Positions 2,947 through 24,656 of a stretch of 27,431 nucleotides of DNA are shown piece after piece (position 1 is the stretch's first letter; each line of letters opens with the position of its first letter). The stretch spans positions 1 to 27,431 of IMG/VR virus record IMGVR_UViG_3300035220_000380; one strand, given 5' to 3'. Below the pieces are notes generated by a model. The model made no database searches. It saw only the letters and a program-made list of their open reading frames with translations, and had not been told where the DNA came from. The translations under genes and the position numbers were made by a program. This stretch comes from a virus.

Positions 2947-5334
2947 TTACTCTAACAATGGGTCTACTTGATTTTTTTCAAAATTAGTTGGTAATAAATC
3001 ATTTTTTCGTTGATCTATCATTTGGCTTTGTTGTGTGGCTTGTATTCTTGTTCTTTCGTCTTTACGGTTTTCTATTTCAGCTTCTTTATTGCTTATAATA
3101 TCTAAATCCATTTGTTTTAGTTGCTGGTCATAACCAAACTGAATCTCCATTAACTGTCTTTTAATTTCAGCTTCTTGTTGTATTTTGTTTATACCAAACT
3201 CAGATTTACCTTGTTCTATTTGTAAAGTTGTTTCAGCTAAAGCTTGTTGTTTTTGCATTTCAGCTAAAGCTCCTCTTTCAGCTGCTTCTGCATTTGCATT
3301 AGCCTGTGCTTGAATATTTGCTTGTTGAGCTTTTTGATCAGCTTCTTGTTTTTGTTTTCTTTTTATTTTAAGAAGTTGATTAGCTAATTTAAGATTGTTA
3401 ATTTGTCTAATATCTATAGCGTCTTCTAGGTTTATTCCACCTTGTTTCATAGCAACTTGAATATTTTGCTCTAGTTGAGCTTTTTCTTCCTCGTCAGGTA
3501 CTAGCTCTAAATATATCCCAAAGTCAGCCATATTCAGCTTATGCATGTCTTCTAGTGTTCCAACATTATATGTGCTTAAACTAGAATTAAGAGCTGATTT
3601 AGTTAAAGGATATTCTAAAGCATCTGATATTCTTAAAGAAATATTTTCACATGTTTTAACTGTTAAATACAATAGTGATTGTAGTAGGTGCTTAGTTGCT
3701 ACGTTTGAACTAGCTGCAGCAAGTTTTTGTAAGCCTACTAGCGAATCTGAATTAGGCATAGTACCATCTCTAGCCTCGTTAAGCCCCGTAACATCTCTCA
3801 TCATTTGTAAATAATATTGATAAGTCTGTATTAAAGCTTGAGTTTTAGCACCACCTGAAGAAGTTTGAAGTTCTTGAATTGGTATTTTGCCTCTATTAAC
3901 GTCGCCATCTTGTGTTAAAGATCTACCTAATATACTACCAGTTTGGAAATACATATTAAGAGCTTCTGCAGGATTATAGTTTGTTCCGTTTCCTAAGTCA
4001 ACCTCTGCCAAACCATCTACATCTAAGAAAACACCATCAGGTACTATTCTTGATAATACTTGTTGTAGTTTTAAATGAGTTAGTTGTATCATGTCAGCAA
4101 AACCAGTCATTCTACTAACTAAAGATTCTATACGCCCTTTATACATTTTAGGAGCGCAAAGCGTATAATTCATATTAACCTTAACAACATTAGCTTCAGG
4201 CCTAACCATGTTTCTTGCAAGTTCCCATCTTAACATTTTATCATGTCCTAAGACTTTAGCGCCTTGATACAAAACCTCTATAGATCTATAAACTCTTTGA
4301 AAGTTATCATTTTCTGGAGGGTTAAACTCGTCATTTTTTTCAATAGCTTTTTCTAAACCAGTAGCTGTTTCTTTTATTTTAAAAACTTGGTTTTGATAAG
4401 TCTTATATTCAAAGTATAATACTGGAACATTGTTAGTATCGTTTCTACCGTTGAATTGATAAGCATAATTACTTCTGTTAGGATATTTTTCTATTTCTCT
4501 TAATTCTTCATCAGTTATATTAGGAAATTCCTTTTTTAATTCTCCTAAATTAATACTCTTTACTTCTCCTATATACCATAGATCTTGAAAATTAGGATCT
4601 TCTGTATAAGAATAAACTAAATCAGCTGGATCAACGTATTTTACTGTAACACCTTCTGATAGATTAAAATCTGTTTTAACAGCACTTATTCCTAAAACAA
4701 CTAAATCATTAGCCATTCTTCTTTTTACTAACTCATACTTATTAAAATCTAAAGTATTGTTAATTGCTTCTTCTTCTGCTATTTCAACCGATTGCTTATA
4801 ATCTAACTGCATATGTATATCTAACTCTTCACGATTCTGAGGTAATTCCTCAGGGTTTGAAGTAGAATACATATTTAATCCTGTAACTTGTTTTATTTGT
4901 TCAATAAGCTTTTTAGCTTGTATATCTCTTAACAAGTGCTCAGCATATTTAGTTCTAGCAGCTAAAGAAACAGGATCTTGAGCATAAGCTTTTATATCAT
5001 AAAGCTTAGTGTCTAATCCATTAACAACTATATCTACAAATTTAGGTATTATAGGAACAGGTTTCCAGTCTAAATTTAAATAAGATAAATCTCCATTTAT
5101 TGCTAGTTCGTCTTTGTATTTTTGAACAGACTGTTCTCCTCTTGCATATAGTCTTAAGTTTCTAAAGTTATTGTAGTTAGTATTAAACCTACCACTTACA
5201 CCAGTACGAGTACCAGCGAACCAATCACCTTCAATTGCTCGACCAACTTGTCTGCCGTAGTCTAAGCTGCTTTTGACTTCATCAGATACTACCTGATCAG
5301 GGAAAGAACTACCGTTTTGAGTACTTATTTGCAT
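2947..5334 (-). CDS. Portal protein
   Basis: A 795-aa protein that would form the dodecameric channel at the capsid vertex through which DNA enters. It starts one base after the TerL stop codon (TAAATG), so the two genes are tightly coupled. The conserved core contains LNEARDGTMPNSDSLVGLQK at about 518-537, a signature I associate with portals of crAss-like and related marine podoviruses, preceded by a long helical stretch with SRMTGFADMIQLTHLKLQQ. Residues about 655-760 form a Gln/Ala/Glu-rich coiled coil, as seen in C-terminal barrel or crown regions of long portals. The size fits the 700-850 aa type. The TerL-portal-scaffold-capsid order supports the call strongly. Confidence 0.9.
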   Translation of the reverse strand: MQISTQNGSSFPDQVVSDEVKSSLDYGRQVGRAIEGDWFAGTRTGVSGRFNTNYNNFRNLRLYARGEQSVQKYKDELAINGDLSYLNLDWKPVPIIPKFVDIVVNGLDTKLYDIKAYAQDPVSLAARTKYAEHLLRDIQAKKLIEQIKQVTGLNMYSTSNPEELPQNREELDIHMQLDYKQSVEIAEEEAINNTLDFNKYELVKRRMANDLVVLGISAVKTDFNLSEGVTVKYVDPADLVYSYTEDPNFQDLWYIGEVKSINLGELKKEFPNITDEELREIEKYPNRSNYAYQFNGRNDTNNVPVLYFEYKTYQNQVFKIKETATGLEKAIEKNDEFNPPENDNFQRVYRSIEVLYQGAKVLGHDKMLRWELARNMVRPEANVVKVNMNYTLCAPKMYKGRIESLVSRMTGFADMIQLTHLKLQQVLSRIVPDGVFLDVDGLAEVDLGNGTNYNPAEALNMYFQTGSILGRSLTQDGDVNRGKIPIQELQTSSGGAKTQALIQTYQYYLQMMRDVTGLNEARDGTMPNSDSLVGLQKLAAASSNVATKHLLQSLLYLTVKTCENISLRISDALEYPLTKSALNSSLSTYNVGTLEDMHKLNMADFGIYLELVPDEEEKAQLEQNIQVAMKQGGINLEDAIDIRQINNLKLANQLLKIKRKQKQEADQKAQQANIQAQANANAEAAERGALAEMQKQQALAETTLQIEQGKSEFGINKIQQEAEIKRQLMEIQFGYDQQLKQMDLDIISNKEAEIENRKDERTRIQATQQSQMIDQRKNDLLPTNFEKNQVDPLLE

Positions 5335-7560
5335 TTATTTTATTATTTTTGAAAAAACTCCGTCGTTATCATAACGTTTAATACCTAATTTAATGTGTTT
5401 AGTTAATCTTTCTGGAACAGGTTTATATTTATTTTTATTACAAGCCATAATAGCTAAGCCTGAACTTATAGTAGCATCATGCTTTGTTCTATTATTTATG
5501 TTAAATTTACCCCAGTCCTCTAAAGTTTTTTGGTGATACATATCGCCATAACCTTCACCTATTAAACCTACATATGTTTCTATATAAGATTCCACAGCCG
5601 CAGCGTGTGCTTGTTTAATGTCTTCACTTGAATTAGGTATTCCACCTATTTCTTTTTCTGTTGTAGAAAGCTTATTCCAAATTTTATCAGGACGATTCAT
5701 TGAAAAACCTCTATAACCTCTACGTTTAAAATAGTACAATAGTCTTGGTTTGTTATTTTCACAGAGTATTGGCATACTATAAAATACGCAAGCCATCAAC
5801 ACGTCTTCAAAAAATATTTCAGCAGTTTGAGGTCTAGCAATATATTCAAGAAAAAAATGATTAGGTGGTGCGTCTTCCATACTAAACTTGGTCAAGCCGT
5901 GCAATGCTCCATTAGAACCTTTACCATCTACTGTTCCACTTATATCGTAACTATCACAACCAAACGCGCCTATATGTTCATTACCAGGATATTTAGTTCC
6001 ATTTTTCATTATTACTTGATTTTGCAAGTTTACAGGTGGAACCCAAGATATCATAAATCTACCATCTTTGTTAGGATAAAATCTTACGCTAGTATCTTTT
6101 ACTCCACTAACCCACTGAAAACTACCTCTAGTAACTGAAGATATATTATTTATTTCAGCGTTGTAATCTATTTGTTGATATATTTTAGTTAAGTTAAACA
6201 AGCTGTCTTTAGCTTCATCTCTAAAAGCATGCTGTTCTGTTCTTGGAAATTGCCTGTAATATTCATTTAAACTATCAGGATCATCCTTTAATCCATCTAC
6301 TTCGTTCTGCCAGTGCTCAATAACTCCTGTTGAAATTTTTTGACCATCTGCTCCTTTAATGTTATTTCCTTCTCTAATGAAAACAGGTGATCCGTAAGTA
6401 TCCATGAATCCTTCGTAGTTCCATTCCATAGGGATGAAAAGAGAATAGAGTCCAGAAGAAGTTTGTCCGTTTTTATTTCTTTTTGTAACGTCTGAAGAGT
6501 AATAGAGTTTTTTGAAGTTGTTTCCACCTTTATCTAATGCGTTTGAAGTTGAGCCCATCATACACTTGCCTACGATTCTTGATCCTAGCCTTAGTGTTGT
6601 TTTTGTAACTCGCCAGTTGTTTAATATGTTGTCCGGTCTTTCCCATTTTCCGCTTTCGTCGTGTGCTAATAATTTTAATTTCTCACCATCGTAAGAGTTG
6701 TCGCCGGTATTTTTCCAGTCAATAGTTGTATCAAGCCCGTCAAGTTCTTTTAGTTGCTCATTACTCTCAAGCTTTCTTCTAGTAAGTTTTGAAGCCGGAA
6801 CCCTATACGCCAGTTCTGTCTTAGGACGATCCATACCGTCTTGGATTGGCTTGAAGAAAAACGGATAGTTAATGGATATTGGCACAACTTTATCTGTGAA
6901 CATTTTTTTAGCATCTGCTCCAGATTTAGATAATATACCGAATCTGGCGTCACTTGATATCGTCGCTTTATTAACAAGCTCTGCCGAGGACATAAATGAA
7001 AATCCAGACCTTCTGTTTTTAAGGTAGCACATCCCGTAACATCTGTTATCTGCTTTACATGCTTCCCAAAATATATAGAATAATCTATTTGCTTCTCTAT
7101 AATCTGGTGCCCCAACGTCGATCTTTGACCACTGTAAGTACATGTAATGAGTGCCAGTGATATATGTAGAAATACCTTTACTATAAAACCAATAACCCTC
7201 TTCTCTTCTTGTAAATTCTTTGTCAATATAATCATACCACCTTTCTTTAAAATCAGTGTCAAAATTTTCCCAGTCAAACCTGCTCTTGATTCTATTTAAT
7301 TCTTTTGGATATTCTGCTTTTTCCCAATATTGTTCAGCTTTTTTTTCGCTTCGTTTATGCGATTCATATTCTGCTGGTAAAGCAATCCTGAGATTCTGTA
7401 TTTCAATGATTTTTCCAATTTTCCCAGTTTTACTTATTACTATAAAGTCATACTCTTCATTATAACCATACTCCCATTTTTTATATCTATTTTGCTTAGA
7501 TAATATTTTAGGGTTTACAACATCTTTAATCTCTTTCCAAAGAGTTTGTTCATAACTCAT
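5335..7560 (-). CDS. Terminase large subunit (ATPase and nuclease)
   Basis: The 741-aa packaging motor. The N-terminal ATPase has a deviant Walker A at 181-188 (KNRRSGFS), where the lysine is at the front of the motif as in lambda gpA (KSARVGYS); Walker B at about 297-302 (LLAHDE); and a coupling motif GSTSN at 336-340. The C-terminal RNase H-like nuclease has candidate metal ligands D536 (FGCDSYD), E601 (ILCENNK) and D695 (HDATISSGLAIMA). It would translocate DNA through the portal and cut the concatemer. The gene overlaps the upstream 91-aa gene by four bases (ATGA) and abuts the portal gene. Length and sequence style match TerL of crAss-like and other marine Bacteroidota phages; the exact clade is uncertain. 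Confidence 0.95.
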   Translation of the reverse strand: MSYEQTLWKEIKDVVNPKILSKQNRYKKWEYGYNEEYDFIVISKTGKIGKIIEIQNLRIALPAEYESHKRSEKKAEQYWEKAEYPKELNRIKSRFDWENFDTDFKERWYDYIDKEFTRREEGYWFYSKGISTYITGTHYMYLQWSKIDVGAPDYREANRLFYIFWEACKADNRCYGMCYLKNRRSGFSFMSSAELVNKATISSDARFGILSKSGADAKKMFTDKVVPISINYPFFFKPIQDGMDRPKTELAYRVPASKLTRRKLESNEQLKELDGLDTTIDWKNTGDNSYDGEKLKLLAHDESGKWERPDNILNNWRVTKTTLRLGSRIVGKCMMGSTSNALDKGGNNFKKLYYSSDVTKRNKNGQTSSGLYSLFIPMEWNYEGFMDTYGSPVFIREGNNIKGADGQKISTGVIEHWQNEVDGLKDDPDSLNEYYRQFPRTEQHAFRDEAKDSLFNLTKIYQQIDYNAEINNISSVTRGSFQWVSGVKDTSVRFYPNKDGRFMISWVPPVNLQNQVIMKNGTKYPGNEHIGAFGCDSYDISGTVDGKGSNGALHGLTKFSMEDAPPNHFFLEYIARPQTAEIFFEDVLMACVFYSMPILCENNKPRLLYYFKRRGYRGFSMNRPDKIWNKLSTTEKEIGGIPNSSEDIKQAHAAAVESYIETYVGLIGEGYGDMYHQKTLEDWGKFNINNRTKHDATISSGLAIMACNKNKYKPVPERLTKHIKLGIKRYDNDGVFSKIIK

Positions 7561-10251: not shown

Positions 10252-10398
10252 TTATTTGTTTTTATATGGAAAGTAATCGTTTAATATGTTTTGTCTGTTT
10301 TTACAACCACAACCTCCAGGTATCATATCTGCCATTTTCTTTATACCTGTTGCTTCTGTAAATCTAGCTACTGTGTCACCAAATCCTCTATCTTTCAT
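10252..10398 (-). CDS. Tiny CGC-motif protein (48 aa)
   Basis: A 48-aa frame from ATG at 10396-10398 to TAA at 10252-10254, found by direct translation. It starts MKDRGFGDTVARFTEATGIK and contains GGCGCKNRQNILNDYFPYK at about residues 28-46. The arrangement of D-T-V near the start, a Cys-Gly-Cys with a following basic residue, then Leu-Asn and Phe-Pro-Tyr is a pattern I associate with tiny proteins in many marine phages. Its start overlaps the preceding gene's stop (ATGA), which supports that it is translated. The two cysteines two residues apart could bind a metal or form a disulphide. Function unknown. Confidence 0.75.
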   Translation of the reverse strand: MKDRGFGDTVARFTEATGIKKMADMIPGGCGCKNRQNILNDYFPYKNK

Positions 10399-10655
10399 TT
10401 TTCTTTATTTGAATTACAAAATTTTCTAGCGGCTGCAACACTTCCAAAACCCCATTTTTTTAAAGCAATAGCTTTTCTAGTTGGCTCGCCATTAGGTTTT
10501 TTCATAGGCCCTTTCATACCAGCAAATCTACAAGCAAAAGATACTCTACGTTTTCCTTTACCACTTGTCTGTCTTGAACCTAGTGTTTTACCTGTTTCTT
10601 TTTTATAATCAGAACGCATCTTACGATTTGATTTTTCATAACCCGCGTTTGTCAT
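10395..10655 (-). CDS. Small basic protein with SFACRFAGMKGPM motif
   Basis: An 86-aa very basic protein. After a Lys/Arg-rich start it has RRVSFACRFAGMKGPMKKPN at about 36-55, then GEPTRKAIALKKWGFGS, and ends in a short basic tail with a second cysteine. The central motif (S-F-x-x-R-x-x-G-M-K-G-P-M then P-T-R-K-A-x-A-L-x-x-W-G) is one I associate with small proteins of marine phages, of unknown function. The gene is coupled at both ends: TAATG with the 49-aa gene upstream and ATGA with the 48-aa gene downstream. The charge suggests binding to nucleic acid. Confidence 0.65.
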   Translation of the reverse strand: MTNAGYEKSNRKMRSDYKKETGKTLGSRQTSGKGKRRVSFACRFAGMKGPMKKPNGEPTRKAIALKKWGFGSVAAARKFCNSNKEK

Positions 10656-12562: not shown

Positions 12563-14311
12563 TTATAGTCCTTTTTTTGATGAAACAGATGCTAGTTCAT
12601 CTTCTAAATTAAATTTGTTATTTACAGTAGGGTTTACCTTCCTAGGTTTTACTTTTTTAGTGTTTTTATTTTTATTATTATTTACTGGAGTGTTTTTCAC
12701 TCTGCCGCCTGACATGCTAACTTTTGATCTAGTTTTTACACCTAATTTACTAGATTTATTACTTTCATTTACATCTTCAACTTTTCCGCTTGATTGTCTG
12801 CTTTTATAAGAATTAATTGAAGAGTTTTTAGTAGTTGATTCCTTATTTGGATTAATACCTGAGGTTAAATAATTTTTTCTACTTTGTTTTGAAACAGACA
12901 CAATCGATTGACCGCTAGCTTTATCTTCGCTACCACTAGGTTTTTCACCTATTTCTTGTTTTTTTGATGATTTAGTTCCTGGTAACATACCACCATTAAA
13001 TGCACCTTTAGTATTTGGTGTATTCTTTTTCTTGGCTGGTGTGTTATTTGTTATAGAACCAGCATTTGGATCTGCTCCAAAATTGTTGCCACTTCCTTTA
13101 CTCTCTCCAAATTGTCCATACTTATTTAACCGCGTATCTCTTTTATTAAGCTCATCATTTTCTTTTTTATTTTCTATAGCTGTTTTATATGCCTTTACTT
13201 GATCATTTAAGTTTTTTTGTTTGGTTTCTTTTTTAATTGCAGCATCAAGATTAAGGGCTCCAGATTCTCCAGATTCTTTATCGATCTTCGGGAATTGGCT
13301 CTTATTAAATTCATCATTTTTTTGACCGCTAAAATTGTTAGATATAGGAGTTAGATTTGAAGCTATTTCTTGCATTTTATTTTCTTGATTTTGCTGGTTG
13401 AGCGATGTTTTAATTGGCATATAACCTCGTGGTATTGGTTTTAAACCTTTCTGACCTTCCTTTGGATCATAATTTGCATCATCAATTGGTTTTAAACCAT
13501 CTAAATTTGTTCTATAATCATCGTTGCCAAACTCTTCGTTACTTTTAACTCCTTGCTTTATAAATCTTTTAGTTTGTCTTTTTAATTTACCAGGTTTAAA
13601 ATTAGAACTAAGAGGATCAACTTTACTTTTTTGATTAGCTTTTATATTTCTTACAAGAGCTTTTCCTTCCCTAAATGCATTACCTAAATCAATAGTAGCA
13701 GTAGCAAGGCTATTACCGTCTTCCGCATCTGCGTTTTGAATAATCCTAGTATCCTTTTGAGTATCTTTTTTTGTAATATTACCTAAAGCTTCATCAACAT
13801 TATTGCCTACATCTTCAACAAGAACTTGTTTTCCTTCTCCACTTTCCTTGGTAATATCTGGTCTTTTGGCTTCTCCCTCTTTTATCATTCTTTCAGTACG
13901 CACTGCATCATTGTCAGTAGCATCATTTCCACCAGCTCCTGGTAGAATTCCTTTTCCAGTATTAGTTTTAGTTTTATTATTTGTATCACCTCTTCCTTCA
14001 CCACTACCACGATCTCTACCTTGCCAAGATTTGCCGATATCTATACCACCATATGTCTTCATAGCGTTGTCTAATACATCACTTTGCCCACCTTGTTGTG
14101 GACTAAAACCACTATTTATAATAGATGTAGGATCGTCATAAAGACTAGCCCCGTTTTTAACATTACTATACATACTTCCGCCTCTACTGCCAGTAACTCC
14201 TTTTGTTCCAGATTTTGGTAGTTGGTAGTTGTGTTGACTTATCCCTTGTTTTAATTTATTAAATAAATTATTTTCGGCTTGGTCTAGTTTTCTTTTAGTT
14301 TTTAAACTCAT
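12563..14311 (-). CDS. Large disordered Lys/Asn/Gly-rich protein
   Basis: A 582-aa protein that is almost entirely polar and low in complexity: Lys, Asn, Gly, Ser, Glu and Asp dominate, with few hydrophobic residues. Near the start GSRGGSMYSNVKNGASLYDD (41-60) holds two copies of the G-x-S-[ML]-Y-[DS] element found in other proteins here. Around 110-145 there is a Gly-rich part, and the C-terminal third has many short KKNTPNTKG and KNKNTKK runs. No enzyme domain, signal or membrane segment is seen. It starts four bases inside the winged-helix gene's end (ATGA). Such proteins may be packaged inside the capsid, linkers in the virion, or fast-evolving accessory proteins; no choice can be made. 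Confidence 0.55.
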   Translation of the reverse strand: MSLKTKRKLDQAENNLFNKLKQGISQHNYQLPKSGTKGVTGSRGGSMYSNVKNGASLYDDPTSIINSGFSPQQGGQSDVLDNAMKTYGGIDIGKSWQGRDRGSGEGRGDTNNKTKTNTGKGILPGAGGNDATDNDAVRTERMIKEGEAKRPDITKESGEGKQVLVEDVGNNVDEALGNITKKDTQKDTRIIQNADAEDGNSLATATIDLGNAFREGKALVRNIKANQKSKVDPLSSNFKPGKLKRQTKRFIKQGVKSNEEFGNDDYRTNLDGLKPIDDANYDPKEGQKGLKPIPRGYMPIKTSLNQQNQENKMQEIASNLTPISNNFSGQKNDEFNKSQFPKIDKESGESGALNLDAAIKKETKQKNLNDQVKAYKTAIENKKENDELNKRDTRLNKYGQFGESKGSGNNFGADPNAGSITNNTPAKKKNTPNTKGAFNGGMLPGTKSSKKQEIGEKPSGSEDKASGQSIVSVSKQSRKNYLTSGINPNKESTTKNSSINSYKSRQSSGKVEDVNESNKSSKLGVKTRSKVSMSGGRVKNTPVNNNKNKNTKKVKPRKVNPTVNNKFNLEDELASVSSKKGL

Positions 14312-14745
14312 CTTGTTCTATCTTTATTAACGTATTCAACCGCTTTAGTTGTTACTTTATATGTGTATCTATTATTTTTTTCTAATTTTTTTGTAGGCAT
14401 ATCTTCTTCGCCTAGCATTATACGGTACATGCGACTTATCAGCTGTTTGCACTTATAGGAAACTTTATATATATGATATTTTTGAGTGGTGTGGTTTCTT
14501 TTCCGCCACACTATAATCCACCCTTGTTTCAATAGTTTGTTCCAGCGCCTGTTATCCCAGCTGAATGAGTACGTACCTTTTATAAAATCATCTTTAGTAA
14601 ACATATCTAAAGCATCTAGATATATTAGTAATTCTAATTCTGCATCATTTAATTCGTTTGTTTTACAAGCCCACTTTCGTATAATCCTGTAATGTTTTAG
14701 TAGATTTAATTCTTTCAAATCTGAAGAGTTTAATTTTCTTATCAA
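14308..14745 (-). CDS. Probable winged-helix (MarR-like) DNA-binding protein
   Basis: A 145-aa basic protein. After a short helix it has LKHYRIIRKWACKTNELNDA at 15-34, helices containing ELELLIYLDALDMFTKDDF at 37-55, SWDNRRWNKLLKQGWIIVWR near 82 and a beta-wing-like segment (HTTQKYHIYKVSYKC), with a last helix near RMYRIMLGEED. The helix pattern and wing, with hydrophobic spacing like MarR-family proteins, suggest a winged-helix DNA-binding protein. It lies between the pre-toxin-like gene and the disordered gene, overlapping both by four bases. In a late cluster it could control late genes or act as a virion-associated DNA binder. The fold is judged by eye only. Confidence 0.5.
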   Translation of the reverse strand: MIRKLNSSDLKELNLLKHYRIIRKWACKTNELNDAELELLIYLDALDMFTKDDFIKGTYSFSWDNRRWNKLLKQGWIIVWRKRNHTTQKYHIYKVSYKCKQLISRMYRIMLGEEDMPTKKLEKNNRYTYKVTTKAVEYVNKDRTR

Positions 14746-15905
14746 AATTTACTCATTTGTTCAAGAATATGAGACTTATTACCAATCGTAGTCGTAAAAC
14801 CATAACCACTTTTTTTAGATCTAATATTTTTCATCATCTCAGGTGGAATAACAAATTCATTAGCTTTGTTCCCAGACTTTTCATAAGCTTCTTTAGTGCT
14901 ATTGAATACAGAAAAACTTTCAGCTTCTTCAGGGTCAAAATACATGGAAATCAACCTTCTATTATCGTCTTTTCCTAAATTATAAGTTGAGAAGTTTTTT
15001 TCGCTTCCACCTAATCTTTTTGTATTATTTAAATAGTAATTAGCCGAACCCGCTGCATACTCTCCTTTAGTTTTGCCCGCCCAATTATAATCGTCATATC
15101 CAATTTTAGGATCTTTATAAACTTCATTTGTTATATTAGCATCTTCTATTCTATTTAAATGAAGAGCTTTACTTTTTTCCATTATCTTAGAAGAACCATC
15201 ATCTTGATAAACTCTTGTATAATTAGGATTTTTAAGTAATTTTGATTCCGCTCTGCCAGTTGATGAAAGCAATGAACCTTTGTAAATGTTTTTTGTTTTA
15301 TTGTAAAGTTTTCTTGTTTTATTTAAACTAGCAGAAGCTAAACCTAGCAATGGTATTGTATTTAGACCAAAAGCTGCCATATTCATAGAAGCGTCTAGTT
15401 GTCCTTGTTTATCATCAGCATATTTAGCGTACAAACCTCTAGCCGCAGATATTCCTACATTTGCAGCATCAGGTACTACTCCAGCTAAAGGAGTCATACC
15501 CGCTGTTTCTAATTTATCTTGAATATCATTTAAAGCTTTAGTGCCTTTTGCTTTTTTGTTAGTACTAATTATTTTATTTCTAACAATCTGTGATTTTTTC
15601 TTTTCAGCCTCAGTTTCAAACTCTGGCTCATTGTTCCAGCTATTAAAATTATTAGACCTAGAACTTCCTAAACCATAATCACTTTTGCTTACAGGGTTAG
15701 GTACAACCCCTGTAAATTTAGGATCTTTTTTTCCTGAAAAAGCTTTAGTATTAGCATTAACACTAGATTGAATGTTGCGTTGCTCAGGTTTTGGTAAAAA
15801 CCCTAATTTTAATGGTTCTCCAGGTTCATTATGACCCGCTAAGTGCATAGAAGCTCCTTTGTTACCCAAAGGGTTTTTATTAAAAAAACCTTTACTAAAA
15901 CCCAT
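14742..15905 (-). CDS. Protein with pre-toxin-like hydrophobic segment and unknown C-terminal domain
   Basis: A 387-aa protein in three parts. Residues 1-125 are disordered and polar, with KGASMHLAG at 16-24 resembling the recurring GxSM element. Residues 130-205 (containing PLAGVVPDAANVGISAARGL and AAFGLNTIPLLGLASASL) look like the small-residue hydrophobic helices before toxin domains in polymorphic and RHS-type toxins, which also occur in phage ejection proteins. Residues 215-387 are a distinct, aromatic-rich domain (TRVYQDDGSSKIMEKSKAL, then RRLISMYFDPEEAESFSVF and NEFVIPPEM), which I cannot identify. It may be an injected effector, an ejection protein or a virion enzyme. It starts three bases after the groES stop and is followed by the winged-helix gene (ATGA). 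Confidence 0.5.
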   Translation of the reverse strand: MGFSKGFFNKNPLGNKGASMHLAGHNEPGEPLKLGFLPKPEQRNIQSSVNANTKAFSGKKDPKFTGVVPNPVSKSDYGLGSSRSNNFNSWNNEPEFETEAEKKKSQIVRNKIISTNKKAKGTKALNDIQDKLETAGMTPLAGVVPDAANVGISAARGLYAKYADDKQGQLDASMNMAAFGLNTIPLLGLASASLNKTRKLYNKTKNIYKGSLLSSTGRAESKLLKNPNYTRVYQDDGSSKIMEKSKALHLNRIEDANITNEVYKDPKIGYDDYNWAGKTKGEYAAGSANYYLNNTKRLGGSEKNFSTYNLGKDDNRRLISMYFDPEEAESFSVFNSTKEAYEKSGNKANEFVIPPEMMKNIRSKKSGYGFTTTIGNKSHILEQMSKF

Positions 15906-15907
15906 AC

Positions 15908-16168
15908 TTATAATATTATTACAACATCAAACTCTTTTATTACTTTATATTCTTCTTTATTTATTTCAATATTAAATCCAGCTGCTTTGTCATAATAGAC
16001 TTCATCGCCTTTTTTTAATACCGATACATCAGAGCCAGGTTCTACAACCTTAGCTCTTCTATATCTAACATCTTCTCTTTGCTTCTCAGCTAAGATTAAA
16101 CCACCTTTTGTAGTTACATCAGTTTCCTTGACTGGATCTATAACTATAAATTTACCTACTGCTTTCAT
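15908..16168 (-). CDS. groES: GroES co-chaperonin
   Basis: An 86-aa co-chaperonin that would cap GroEL and help fold clients in the cytoplasm. The mobile loop is TTKGGLILAEK (19-29), with GGLIL corresponding to GGIVL of bacterial GroES. LKKGDEVYYD at 51-60 matches the conserved KVGD strand, and the last strand (YKVIKEFDVVIIL) closes the barrel. Slightly shorter than the 94-97 aa of bacteria, as in other phage proteins of this type. Its start overlaps the groEL stop (ATGA). The order groEL then groES is opposite to the usual bacterial order. Near-full-length motifs suggest function with the phage GroEL or that of the host. Confidence 0.93.
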   Translation of the reverse strand: MKAVGKFIVIDPVKETDVTTKGGLILAEKQREDVRYRRAKVVEPGSDVSVLKKGDEVYYDKAAGFNIEINKEEYKVIKEFDVVIIL

Positions 16169-17712
16169 GCTCTAATATTATTAATAACACAATCAGTAGA
16201 TAATATTGTTGTAGCTACTGAAGCTGCGTTTGTTAGTGCACTTTTAGTAACAAGCAAAGGATCTATAATTCCGGCTTTTACCATATCAACCGTATTTCCT
16301 GTAACCACATCTAATCCCATGCCTTTTACTTCTGGTGTTTTATAATCTTCAACGCCAGCGTTTTTAAGTATCAATTTATAAGGCTCTTTAATAGCACAGT
16401 AAAGTACCTCTTCGCCTATTGACATTGGTTTTAATTGCTGTGCGGCGTTTAATAAAGCTATACCGCCTCCTGGCACTATACCTTCTTTGATCGCAGCTTT
16501 TGTAGCACAAATAGCATCTTCTACTCTATCTCTTTTTTCTTTTAATTCCATTTCAGAGTTAGCACCCACTTTAACTGTAGCAACTTTAGCTTTTAATTTA
16601 GCTAATCGTCTTTCTAGTCTTATTATTACATTTGGGTTTTTAGTTTCTTTAATTTGATTTTCTAATAGTAAAACTATATCTTTAACAACAGAATTTACAG
16701 ATAAATCAACTTGCATTATAGTATCCTCATGGTTTGTAACAGCTTTTAAACAAGTTCCTAAGTATTCTGGATCTATAATATCCATATCATCACCTAAGTC
16801 TTCGTTAATAAGTGTAGCACCAGTAACCGCGCATAAATCATTTAGAGTATCCTTTTTACTGATACCATAAACCGGTGCATCTATAATGTTAACCTTTATG
16901 TTTCCTTTTACTTTGTTCATTGAAAGTGCTGAAACTACTTGAGGGTCAACATCTGCTATTATAAGCAAACTTTTACCTGTCTTTATCACATGTTCAAGAA
17001 CTGACTGAATCTTCCGCACGTTGGGTATTACTGATTCTACGATTAGAACCAACGGATTTTCAAGTTCAGCCGTGCCCTTTTCCTTGTTGGTGATAAAGTG
17101 GTTGTTTTTCAAGGGCTGATCATATTGCACGCCTTCTACTAACTCAACTACTGTTTCAGGTTGTTCATTTGTTTCCATCATAACAATGCCTGTTTCATCT
17201 ACTAGTCTAAACGCTTCTCCTATAACCTTCCCAAGATTTTTGTCATTATTGGCTGATATTGTAGCCACTTGGTCGATTTTTTTACCTTTTACTTTCTTTG
17301 CTGTTTTTTCTAAATAAGCTAATACTTTTTTAACACCTGAATCAATACCTTTTTTTAATTCTCTTGAAGTATCTAACTCACTGTGCTTGTAAGCTTCATC
17401 TAAAATAGCTTTTGCTAACACCGTAGCAGTTGTAGTGCCGTCGCCTGCATCTTTAACGGTTCTTTGTGCTGCTTGCTTTATTAACGTAGCTCCAATATTT
17501 TCTAAAGAATCTTGTAATGTAACTGAATTAGCTACTGTTACCCCATCTTTTGTTATTTGTGGCATGCCATTGGCATCTTCTAATATAACACATTTACCAC
17601 TTGCTCCTAAAGTAGAACCTACTGCATTAGTAAGTTTCTCTACCCCAGTTAATATCTGACTTCTGGCACCATCACCAAAAGCCAGATTTTTAACTAACTT
17701 TATTTCTTGCAT
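16165..17712 (-). CDS. groEL: GroEL chaperonin
   Basis: A 515-aa group I chaperonin, somewhat shorter than the about 545 aa of bacteria. ATP-binding and hydrolysis residues are present: ITKDGVTV (D56, D52 of E. coli), AGDGTTTATVLA at 89-100 (D91, D87), RVEDAICATKAA with D399 (D398) and PGGGIALLNA at 414-423, and GIIDPLLV with D484. The apical segment has VEGVQYDQP (193-200) and hydrophobic residues that contact clients. The C-terminal Gly-Gly-Met tail is absent: the protein ends TDCVINNIRA. It would fold phage virion proteins or replace host GroEL. The gene follows a 97-aa gene after 32 bases with an A-rich leader, and is coupled to groES. Confidence 0.98.
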   Translation of the reverse strand: MQEIKLVKNLAFGDGARSQILTGVEKLTNAVGSTLGASGKCVILEDANGMPQITKDGVTVANSVTLQDSLENIGATLIKQAAQRTVKDAGDGTTTATVLAKAILDEAYKHSELDTSRELKKGIDSGVKKVLAYLEKTAKKVKGKKIDQVATISANNDKNLGKVIGEAFRLVDETGIVMMETNEQPETVVELVEGVQYDQPLKNNHFITNKEKGTAELENPLVLIVESVIPNVRKIQSVLEHVIKTGKSLLIIADVDPQVVSALSMNKVKGNIKVNIIDAPVYGISKKDTLNDLCAVTGATLINEDLGDDMDIIDPEYLGTCLKAVTNHEDTIMQVDLSVNSVVKDIVLLLENQIKETKNPNVIIRLERRLAKLKAKVATVKVGANSEMELKEKRDRVEDAICATKAAIKEGIVPGGGIALLNAAQQLKPMSIGEEVLYCAIKEPYKLILKNAGVEDYKTPEVKGMGLDVVTGNTVDMVKAGIIDPLLVTKSALTNAASVATTILSTDCVINNIRA

Positions 17713-23589: not shown

Positions 23590-23982
23590 CTAGCATGAGA
23601 AAGTTTCTGATACTTCTCCATCTTCACCAATTACCATTATTTTGTTATTAGCCATTTTATAAGAGCCTCCTTCAAGAGGTTCTTCGCAACTGCTATCGGT
23701 AAAAACATTATCTCCAGCTACTGGATAAGTACCAGAACCGTTATGAAAGTAAATAATTTCTGGATCTAGTTCACAAGCTTCTTTTGACTGCTGACTACCA
23801 GAAAAAGAAGTGCAACTACTAGCAGACTGACCGTAAAAGTCATTAGCTAGTTCTATATTACTAGTCACTGTAGGTGTTGGTAACGTAGAGCCAAAAGTAT
23901 ATAAAGACATATTAGAGCTTGCTTGACCAAACTCTGTAGCTATAGCACTCATGGATAACGGACCTGATGTTGGTAGAGCCAT
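23590..23982 (-). CDS. Cysteine-containing tail protein (130 aa)
   Basis: A 130-aa protein with MALPTSGPLSMSAIATEFGQ at the start, followed by SNMSLYTFGSTLPTP and a second part (about 57-130) with cysteines and beta strands: YFHNGSGTYPVAGDNVFTDS and KIMVIGEDGEVSETFSC. The N-terminal G-P-L-S-M-S-x-I-x-x-E-F-G pattern occurs in phage tail and adsorption proteins. Five cysteines suggest disulphides in an extracellular domain. Its start overlaps the S74 gene's stop (TAATG) and it ends with TAG. No chaperone or anchor module is seen. It is probably a receptor-contact or fibre-attachment protein, from context and composition. Confidence 0.65.
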   Translation of the reverse strand: MALPTSGPLSMSAIATEFGQASSNMSLYTFGSTLPTPTVTSNIELANDFYGQSASSCTSFSGSQQSKEACELDPEIIYFHNGSGTYPVAGDNVFTDSSCEEPLEGGSYKMANNKIMVIGEDGEVSETFSC

Positions 23983-24656
23983 TATTTATTTTTTAATTCG
24001 TTAACTTCGTTAGTTAATTCTTTTATAGCTTCTATTAGTAATGGTACAATTTTTTCATACTTAACAGCTTTATAACCGCTATCTCTAGTGGTAACTACGT
24101 CTGGTAGTATTTTCTCTATTTCTTGAGCTATAACGCCTATATCATGTCCACTATTGCCATGAATCTTTTCTTTCTCTATCCAATCAAACTCTATACCTTG
24201 TATACTATTTACTTTATCTAAAGCGTTATCAATAGTTTTGATATTGTCTTTTAATCTAATATCAGACGTAGAAAAAGCTACAACATCGTTTGAAGCATCT
24301 ATTCTGCCATCGGTAGCAGAATTACTTATATTACCTACAGCTATAGATCCAGTACTAACTTTTAAGTCACTGCTAAAAGTTTTAATACCAGCTACTGTTT
24401 GGTTGCCTGAAGTAAGAACTGCTCCTGAAAGTGAAGTTAAAAATCCAGAGTTATTAGTAAGTTGACTAGTGTTAGTAGGTATTGTAGTGCTAGTAAAAGC
24501 ATTAGGACCTAGGTTTTTTTTCTTAACAACTCCAGACTCTTGAAACAAGGCGCTTACTGTTTCTTCGCCTGCATCTGCAATACTAGACAGGGTTAGTGTG
24601 TTAGAAAAAGTACTAGCACCACTAACTGTTATACCATCTAAAAAATTTATTGCCAT
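23982..24656 (-). CDS. Short tail fibre with peptidase S74 intramolecular chaperone
   Basis: A 224-aa fibre. Residues 1-12 (MAINFLDGITVS) match the 465-aa fibre's start (MAINFLDNIQLN), a second type of anchor module. The middle is a fibre repeat region (GFLTSLSGAVLTSGNQTVAG). From about 129 there is a peptidase S74 domain: S131-D-I-R-L-K136-D-N, with the likely Ser/Lys dyad S131 and K136, then GVIAQEIEKILPDV at 174-187, and VKYEKIVPLLIEAIKEL at 198-214. S74 domains assist trimer assembly and then cut themselves off just before the serine. Its gene lies four bases after the 465-aa fibre. That the other fibres lack an S74 domain raises the idea that this one also helps them in trans, which is unproven. 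Confidence 0.9.
   Translation of the reverse strand: MAINFLDGITVSGASTFSNTLTLSSIADAGEETVSALFQESGVVKKKNLGPNAFTSTTIPTNTSQLTNNSGFLTSLSGAVLTSGNQTVAGIKTFSSDLKVSTGSIAVGNISNSATDGRIDASNDVVAFSTSDIRLKDNIKTIDNALDKVNSIQGIEFDWIEKEKIHGNSGHDIGVIAQEIEKILPDVVTTRDSGYKAVKYEKIVPLLIEAIKELTNEVNELKNK

Follow-up and report, generated by a model that had tools for sequence, protein, structure and literature searches.

The window analysed here is a whole IMG/VR virus record of 27,431 bases from a marine virus of bacteria, and it carries a groEL gene followed, on the minus strand, by a gene for the co-chaperonin GroES. Bacterial operons run the other way, which raises two questions: whether the pair is a captured host operon or a unit that evolved in phages, and what it folds. 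The reading favoured here, with a probability of about 0.7, is that the two genes encode a working group I chaperonin of a phage lineage, inherited in phages and likely folding head proteins.

The chaperonin pair and its genomic setting

Both genes are assigned to their families by several profiles (Table 1). GroEL matches Pfam Cpn60_TCP1 (PF00118) at 182.4 bits (cut-off 34.3), PHROG 5725 groEL at E=9.8e-131 and NCBIfam PRK00013 at 456 bits, above the cut-off of 397; its 448 bits against the equivalog TIGR02348 are below the cut-off of 582. GroES matches Pfam Cpn10 (PF00166) at 42.8 bits (cut-off 21.1) and PHROG 3188 at E=3.7e-13. The initial annotation had described groEL as the first gene, with its stop codon overlapping the groES start, complete ATPase residues, a GGLIL mobile loop in GroES and no Gly-Gly-Met tail on GroEL, and each of these holds: the genes share the four bases ATGA, all core ATPase positions are kept, and GGLIL occupies GroES residues 22–26. 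In the window's family, defined as 147 IMG/VR loci with GroEL 55–96% identical to the window's, the Gly-Gly-Met tail is found in 0 of 146 rows, versus 69 of 80 bacterial GroELs (the best 80 listed).

Within this family both genes are under purifying selection, since dN/dS is ~0.09 for groEL and ~0.14 for groES. GroEL and GroES distances are strongly correlated (Mantel r = 0.886, a value that none of 999 permutations reached), and this correlation, together with purifying selection, indicates a co-inherited unit that is used. Promoter-like sites for the pair number 12 against 17 expected, fewer than chance; a scan for its terminator found no terminator-like site on the minus strand, and no tRNA was found in the window.

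Table 1. Features of the window discussed in the text
Feature	Position	Strand	Basis
virion structural protein, probably major capsid protein, 486 aa	265..1725	-	PHROG 13704, E=3.1e-92
portal protein	2947..5334	-	PHROG 6547, E=1.9e-140
terminase large subunit	5335..7560	-	PHROG 6681, E=3.9e-159
tandem two-domain GroES (Cpn20-like), 197 aa	7777..8370	-	PHROG 13932, GroES profile, model
conserved neighbour, 145 aa, PHROG 17028, no function assigned	14308..14745	-	locus survey
groES, co-chaperonin, 86 aa, mobile loop GGLIL	15908..16168	-	Pfam Cpn10, AlphaFold model
site of absent GroES roof hairpin, residues 46-53	16010..16033	-	GroES alignment; model
GroES mobile loop, residues 16-34	16067..16123	-	alignment to E. 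coli GroES; model
ATGA overlap, groEL stop / groES start	16165..16168	-	sequence; relatives' loci
groEL, group I chaperonin, 515 aa	16165..17712	-	Pfam Cpn60_TCP1, PHROG 5725, ATPase residues
shortened GroEL segment, equivalent to E. coli E461/S463/V464 inter-ring contact, residues 451-466	16315..16362	-	segment lengths
GroEL deletion at E. coli E434 inter-ring loop, residues 427-431	16420..16434	-	segment lengths

Genes for structural and lysis proteins surround the pair on the same strand. Judged by sequence similarity, the terminase, portal and capsid genes group the phage with Elemovirus, Maribacter phage Panino and Cellulophaga phages: identities for the three proteins are 64/52/52% to Podoviridae sp. 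ctfjg026, 46/41/43% to Elemovirus and 42/43/48% to Panino, and Cellulophaga phages also match. A marine flavobacterial host is likely, because the isolated relatives infect Flavobacteriia (Flavobacterium, Cellulophaga, Maribacter and Tenacibaculum). From its position after the portal gene, the 486-residue virion protein is probably the major capsid protein and thus a candidate client. The PHROG 17028 gene is found near groEL-groES on the same strand in all 137 loci with enough flanking sequence. Between it and groES lies a variable insertion, a 387-aa frame (14742–15905, minus strand) directly after groES that has no match in the 138 family loci reaching there. Elsewhere on the minus strand, 10395–10655 encodes an 86-aa protein with Pfam DUF6321.

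Gene order in phages and bacteria

Besides the window's family, the survey of gene order covered 14 Elemovirus-type loci, 80 relatives of Podoviridae sp. ctfjg026 (the Manatee Spring group), reference phages, and a bacterial sample made up of the best 80 groEL loci among the matches listed. Two family loci, L155 and L156, are repeat contigs of L004 and L043, and two others end before the groES position. First, groEL precedes groES in 146 of 146 informative family rows, the window counted (143 distinct other IMG/VR loci). The 4-base overlap is present in 65/65 close relatives having groES and in 81/142 family rows, and spacing across the family ranges from -65 to +1 bases. Second, groEL is first in all 14 informative Elemovirus-type loci and in 79 of 81 loci of the Manatee Spring group, groES not being found in the other two; the spacer in this group reaches about 2 kb with the order kept. 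Panino also has groEL first and groES downstream. Third, the earlier statement that bacterial operons nearly always begin with groES is borne out by 70 of the 70 bacterial loci with detectable groES among the best 80 listed, and no sampled host is groEL-first. Chance gene order is ruled out by these opposite orders (146/146 family versus 70/70 bacterial). In Panino, PANI_CDS0109 (PP540027.1; locus L430, 40129–40395, minus strand), annotated as hypothetical, is a GroES of 88 aa, and a 44-aa frame separates it from groEL.

Not all phages share this arrangement. Pervagoviridae phi40:1 and phi38:1, Immutovirus, Bacteroides phage SJC03 and one faecal phage contig are groES-first. No groES was found within about 2.5 kb of groEL in several Vibrio phages, a 735-kb phage, JM-2012 and phi14:2, and in the crAss-like cr111_1 a weak groES match lies 1.3 kb downstream of the GroEL gene.

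The reversed order is already known and is not new. Elemovirus public records show groEL-groES, marine Bacteroidetes phage GroELs were published in 2017 (PMC5332604), and a link between viral GroEL phylogeny and gene order is attributed to Marine et al. 2017 as cited in PMC9611531. The virioplankton GroELs of that study (doi 10.1038/ismej.2017.102) are marine viral group I chaperonins like the window's; according to PMC9611531 their genomes are likely >70 kb, compared with ~58–68 kb for the longest relatives here.

Among the groEL-first phages, Elemovirus (Flavobacterium phages vB_FspP_elemo, e.g. NC_062741) resembles the window in having groEL then groES (with a 1-base overlap), a tandem GroES gene beside the terminase, and related terminase, portal and capsid genes. 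However, its GroEL is only about 37% identical to the window's and its chaperonin genes are oriented against those next to them. Podoviridae sp. ctfjg026 (MW202828, Manatee Spring) is likewise groEL-first and has the closest virion genes among phage records, but its GroEL and GroES are 33% and about 41% identical to those of the window, and spacing is variable among its relatives.

Origin of the pair

The gene order maps to one change on the GroEL tree. In the maximum-likelihood tree, a branch with support 100/99.8 separates the three large groEL-first groups (the window's family, Elemovirus and the Manatee Spring group) from the other sequences, and the window's family forms a separate clade (100/100) outside all sampled bacteria. 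The tree has long branches and no outgroup, so that deep placement is uncertain, and the careful version left out the long-branch GroELs of cr111_1, JM-2012, phi14:2, GR28A, VAP7, Va1 and the groES-first phi40:1. A single origin of the groEL-first order is therefore favoured, not proven, given the long branches, the lack of an outgroup and the omission of phi40:1.

One explanation of the locus is that this one phage or its genus recently captured a host groESL operon and rearranged it locally. Such capture occurs in other phages: in the tree SJC03 GroEL lies within Bacteroidota, and those of Vibrio phages 2.275.O and phiKT1024 group with E. coli GroEL. It does not occur in the window's family, where it would have to account for a separate clade with full support, for rejection by the AU test (p = 0.016) of nesting with the single Flavobacteriaceae row included, for the absence of any host homologue above 44% identity in the 395 Bacteroidota genomes searched, and for loci down to 55% identity with the same order. 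Recent capture is thus very improbable and, with identity of 44% at best and the tree as it stands, is refuted by the present data. Provirus sequences in bacterial genomes were also considered as a source; none is closer than 43% among the genome contigs listed.

The pair is an old phage unit, not a recent capture. This agrees with the initial annotation, which had proposed evolution as a phage unit: the correlated GroEL and GroES distances, the family's own clade, the one change of order and the distance to hosts (44% or less) all support it, and phylogeny against Bacteroidota and phage chaperonins places the family outside the sampled bacteria, with no host genus holding the two genes. The further claim that simple capture of a host operon is unlikely stands for recent capture. 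A sister relation to all Bacteroidota is compatible with the AU test (p = 0.204), so a stem Bacteroidota host may have supplied the pair, whose order would have been inverted once soon after and which would then have evolved for long in phages. The best PDB sequence match of GroEL, an ancestral Fibrobacteres-Chlorobi-Bacteroidetes chaperonin, points the same way, as do the nearest bacterial GroELs, many of which are Bacteroidota among the matches listed. Against this, the best tree has the groEL-first phages outside all sampled bacteria, on long branches and with no outgroup. Ancient capture is possible, at odds clearly below even, and it differs from the favoured reading of an old phage unit only by naming the source.

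Whether the order itself matters is a separate question. It may be a functionless founder accident that became frozen, for a single change accounts for all cases and the order is kept even where the Manatee Spring spacer reaches such length; the overlap or near-contact of the genes throughout the window's family argues otherwise, and we give the accident slightly less than an even chance. The reversed order serves as a marker of an old and widespread phage chaperonin lineage.

The GroEL ring and its lid

Residue checks on 22 family representatives aligned to E. coli GroEL show that the core ATPase residues are kept and that contact residues differ. Equivalents of E. coli K51, D52, D87, T89-T91, N153, D398, G415 and D495 are unchanged in 22/22; P33 is replaced by Ala and A480/A481 mostly by Val, which are mild changes. 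By alignment, the residues that join the two rings are lost or changed. The segment holding the E434 loop is 14 aa in 22/22 representatives versus 20–31 in bacteria, the loop itself being deleted; A109 is missing; and the region of R452, E461, S463 and V464 carries substitutions and is shorter, the E461/S463/V464 segment being 14–20 aa in the family (15 in most) versus 20–23 in bacteria. The second segment of Elemovirus GroEL (457–478) is full length in 3/4 representatives, unlike that of the window. In the apical domain, L234 is replaced by Q in 21/22, Y203 by H in 17/22 and V263 by A in 19/22. In E. coli these three positions make contact with GroES and substrate; the phage residues there are smaller or more polar, and affinity or the cycle may therefore differ.

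These changes suggest that the phage GroEL may resemble mitochondrial Hsp60 in working chiefly as a single ring that binds its lid weakly. Mutation of R452/E461/S463/V464 yields a single-ring E. coli GroEL, mitochondrial Hsp60 is without two inter-ring salt bridges, and weaker lid binding is required for a working single ring (PMC5575113); the more polar apical contacts of the phage protein also favour this reading. However, the window GroEL has K446 and E455 at the R452 and E461 positions, which could pair and leave one salt bridge, other residues could form a different interface, and the GroEL of phage EL makes double rings that split with ATP (PMC7185714). The single ring is accordingly a tentative reading, one that falls just short of even odds. 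The EL chaperonin, gp146 of this Pseudomonas phage, is likewise a phage-encoded GroEL homologue, but a distant one that did not interact with E. coli GroES (PMC7185714), whereas the window protein has greater similarity to bacterial GroEL and is accompanied by a groES gene.

The GroES lid is altered at its roof. At the hairpin site, 8 aa lie between the flanking glycines in the alignment, versus 17 in E. coli and 12 in most Bacteroidota, and the short site is found in all groEL-first phage families. Bacteroidota lids are thus already short at the roof, so that the phage change amounts to about four further residues. The AlphaFold model (pLDDT 88) has a plain loop with no strands at residues 46–55, and the mobile loop is a low-confidence, flexible stretch. 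It matches PDB GroES chains at Z 10–11 (VIA Z 11.1, rmsd 2.0, 84 aligned to 8wuw_a) and gp31 at Z 8.6. The predicted structure thereby confirms a GroES fold with a mobile loop and without the roof hairpin. T4 gp31, whose client is the capsid protein gp23, likewise has a GroES fold without roof loops; it is believed that a wider opening and an enlarged chamber let it accommodate this 56-kDa protein (PMC6318259). Unlike gp31, which works with host GroEL, the short window lid (86 aa) comes with a GroEL encoded by the phage.

A second, tandem GroES near the terminase gene

One small gene separates the terminase gene from a second GroES-like gene. Its product matches PHROG 13932 co-chaperonin GroES over its length (E=2.8e-22), and its two halves score 25 and 29 bits against the GroES profile. 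The predicted structure (pLDDT 83) is a double barrel, and an ordinary GroES is ruled out for this protein by its two barrels. A hydrophobic loop, ELIIN, is present in domain 1, with none clear in domain 2. The best PDB match of the model is 7ekq_Q (Z 9.9, rmsd 5.5, 154 aligned), from a Chlamydomonas ClpP complex whose matching chains we take to be the capping co-chaperonins CPN20/CPN23.

All 25 long IMG/VR records searched that carry window-type groEL also have the tandem gene. Of 10 records chosen by the tandem gene, 9 have groEL and the tenth is a 32-kb fragment. The window, Elemovirus, Panino, phi38:1 and phi13:2 each encode a single as well as a tandem GroES, and the public records of the latter four label the tandem protein "co-chaperonin GroES". 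Cellulophaga phage phi13:2 has both forms and no GroEL; its single-domain GroES match lies in NC_021803.1 (locus L455) at 30087–30311 on the plus strand (E=6e-12). The protein cpn10 is listed among the core proteins of Pervagoviridae (PMC8776804). A literature search covering few subscription journals found no papers on Cpn20 in phages or on the tandem form.

Chloroplast Cpn20 consists of two tandem Cpn10 domains and forms seven-domain rings with Cpn10, an architecture described as chloroplast-specific (PMC5780408). The 197-aa window protein resembles chloroplast Cpn20 and Chlamydomonas CPN20/CPN23 in its tandem GroES-like domains, but it is phage-encoded near the terminase and shares only 9–15% identity over the structural match. 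It probably serves the phage machine or host GroEL. A two-component lid of GroES and the tandem protein on a single-ring phage GroEL, as in the chloroplasts of green algae and plants, is unlikely, and the chloroplast-like mixed lid in phages is offered strictly as a testable idea.

Proposed mechanism and clients

It is plausible that a single message encodes GroEL and then its lid, and that the ATGA overlap ties translation of the lid to that of GroEL. By homology, the GroEL ring would bind unfolded phage proteins, ATP binding would let the phage's roofless GroES cap the ring, and the client would fold in a cage suited to it. The likeliest clients would be abundant head proteins such as the major capsid protein, and the tandem GroES probably serves the same machine or host GroEL. 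Gene order, phylogeny and selection show that the unit has descended within a short-tailed phage lineage of Flavobacteriia and relatives, and is not recently host-derived. The initial annotation had suggested long fibre or capsid proteins as possible clients; head proteins are the better guess, the fibre being a weaker candidate because the fibre-type protein at 23982–24656 (minus strand) has its own C-terminal intramolecular chaperone domain, Peptidase_S74.

As far as the literature was searched, the roofless lid, changed ring interface and tandem second lid form a new combination. What could matter here is a GroEL without the usual ring-ring contacts, served by a roofless lid and accompanied by a double-barrelled second lid gene near the packaging genes. 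Does this represent a single-ring cage evolved in phages, can a chloroplast-like mixed lid form on it, and which virion proteins need the cage? Because Elemovirus, Panino, phi38:1 and phi13:2 have been isolated and their bacterial hosts are named, these ideas are directly testable.

The phage proteins might instead act mainly with host GroEL or GroES, in mixed complexes or through a replacement lid like gp31. The lids of phi13:2, if they are lids at all, must use host GroEL, as this phage has no GroEL gene. In the window's family, however, groEL and groES are always paired and are co-evolving, which makes a mainly host-partnered role rather improbable. Against the favoured reading, phi13:2 has related virion genes and no GroEL, so this type of virion can do without a GroEL of the phage's own.
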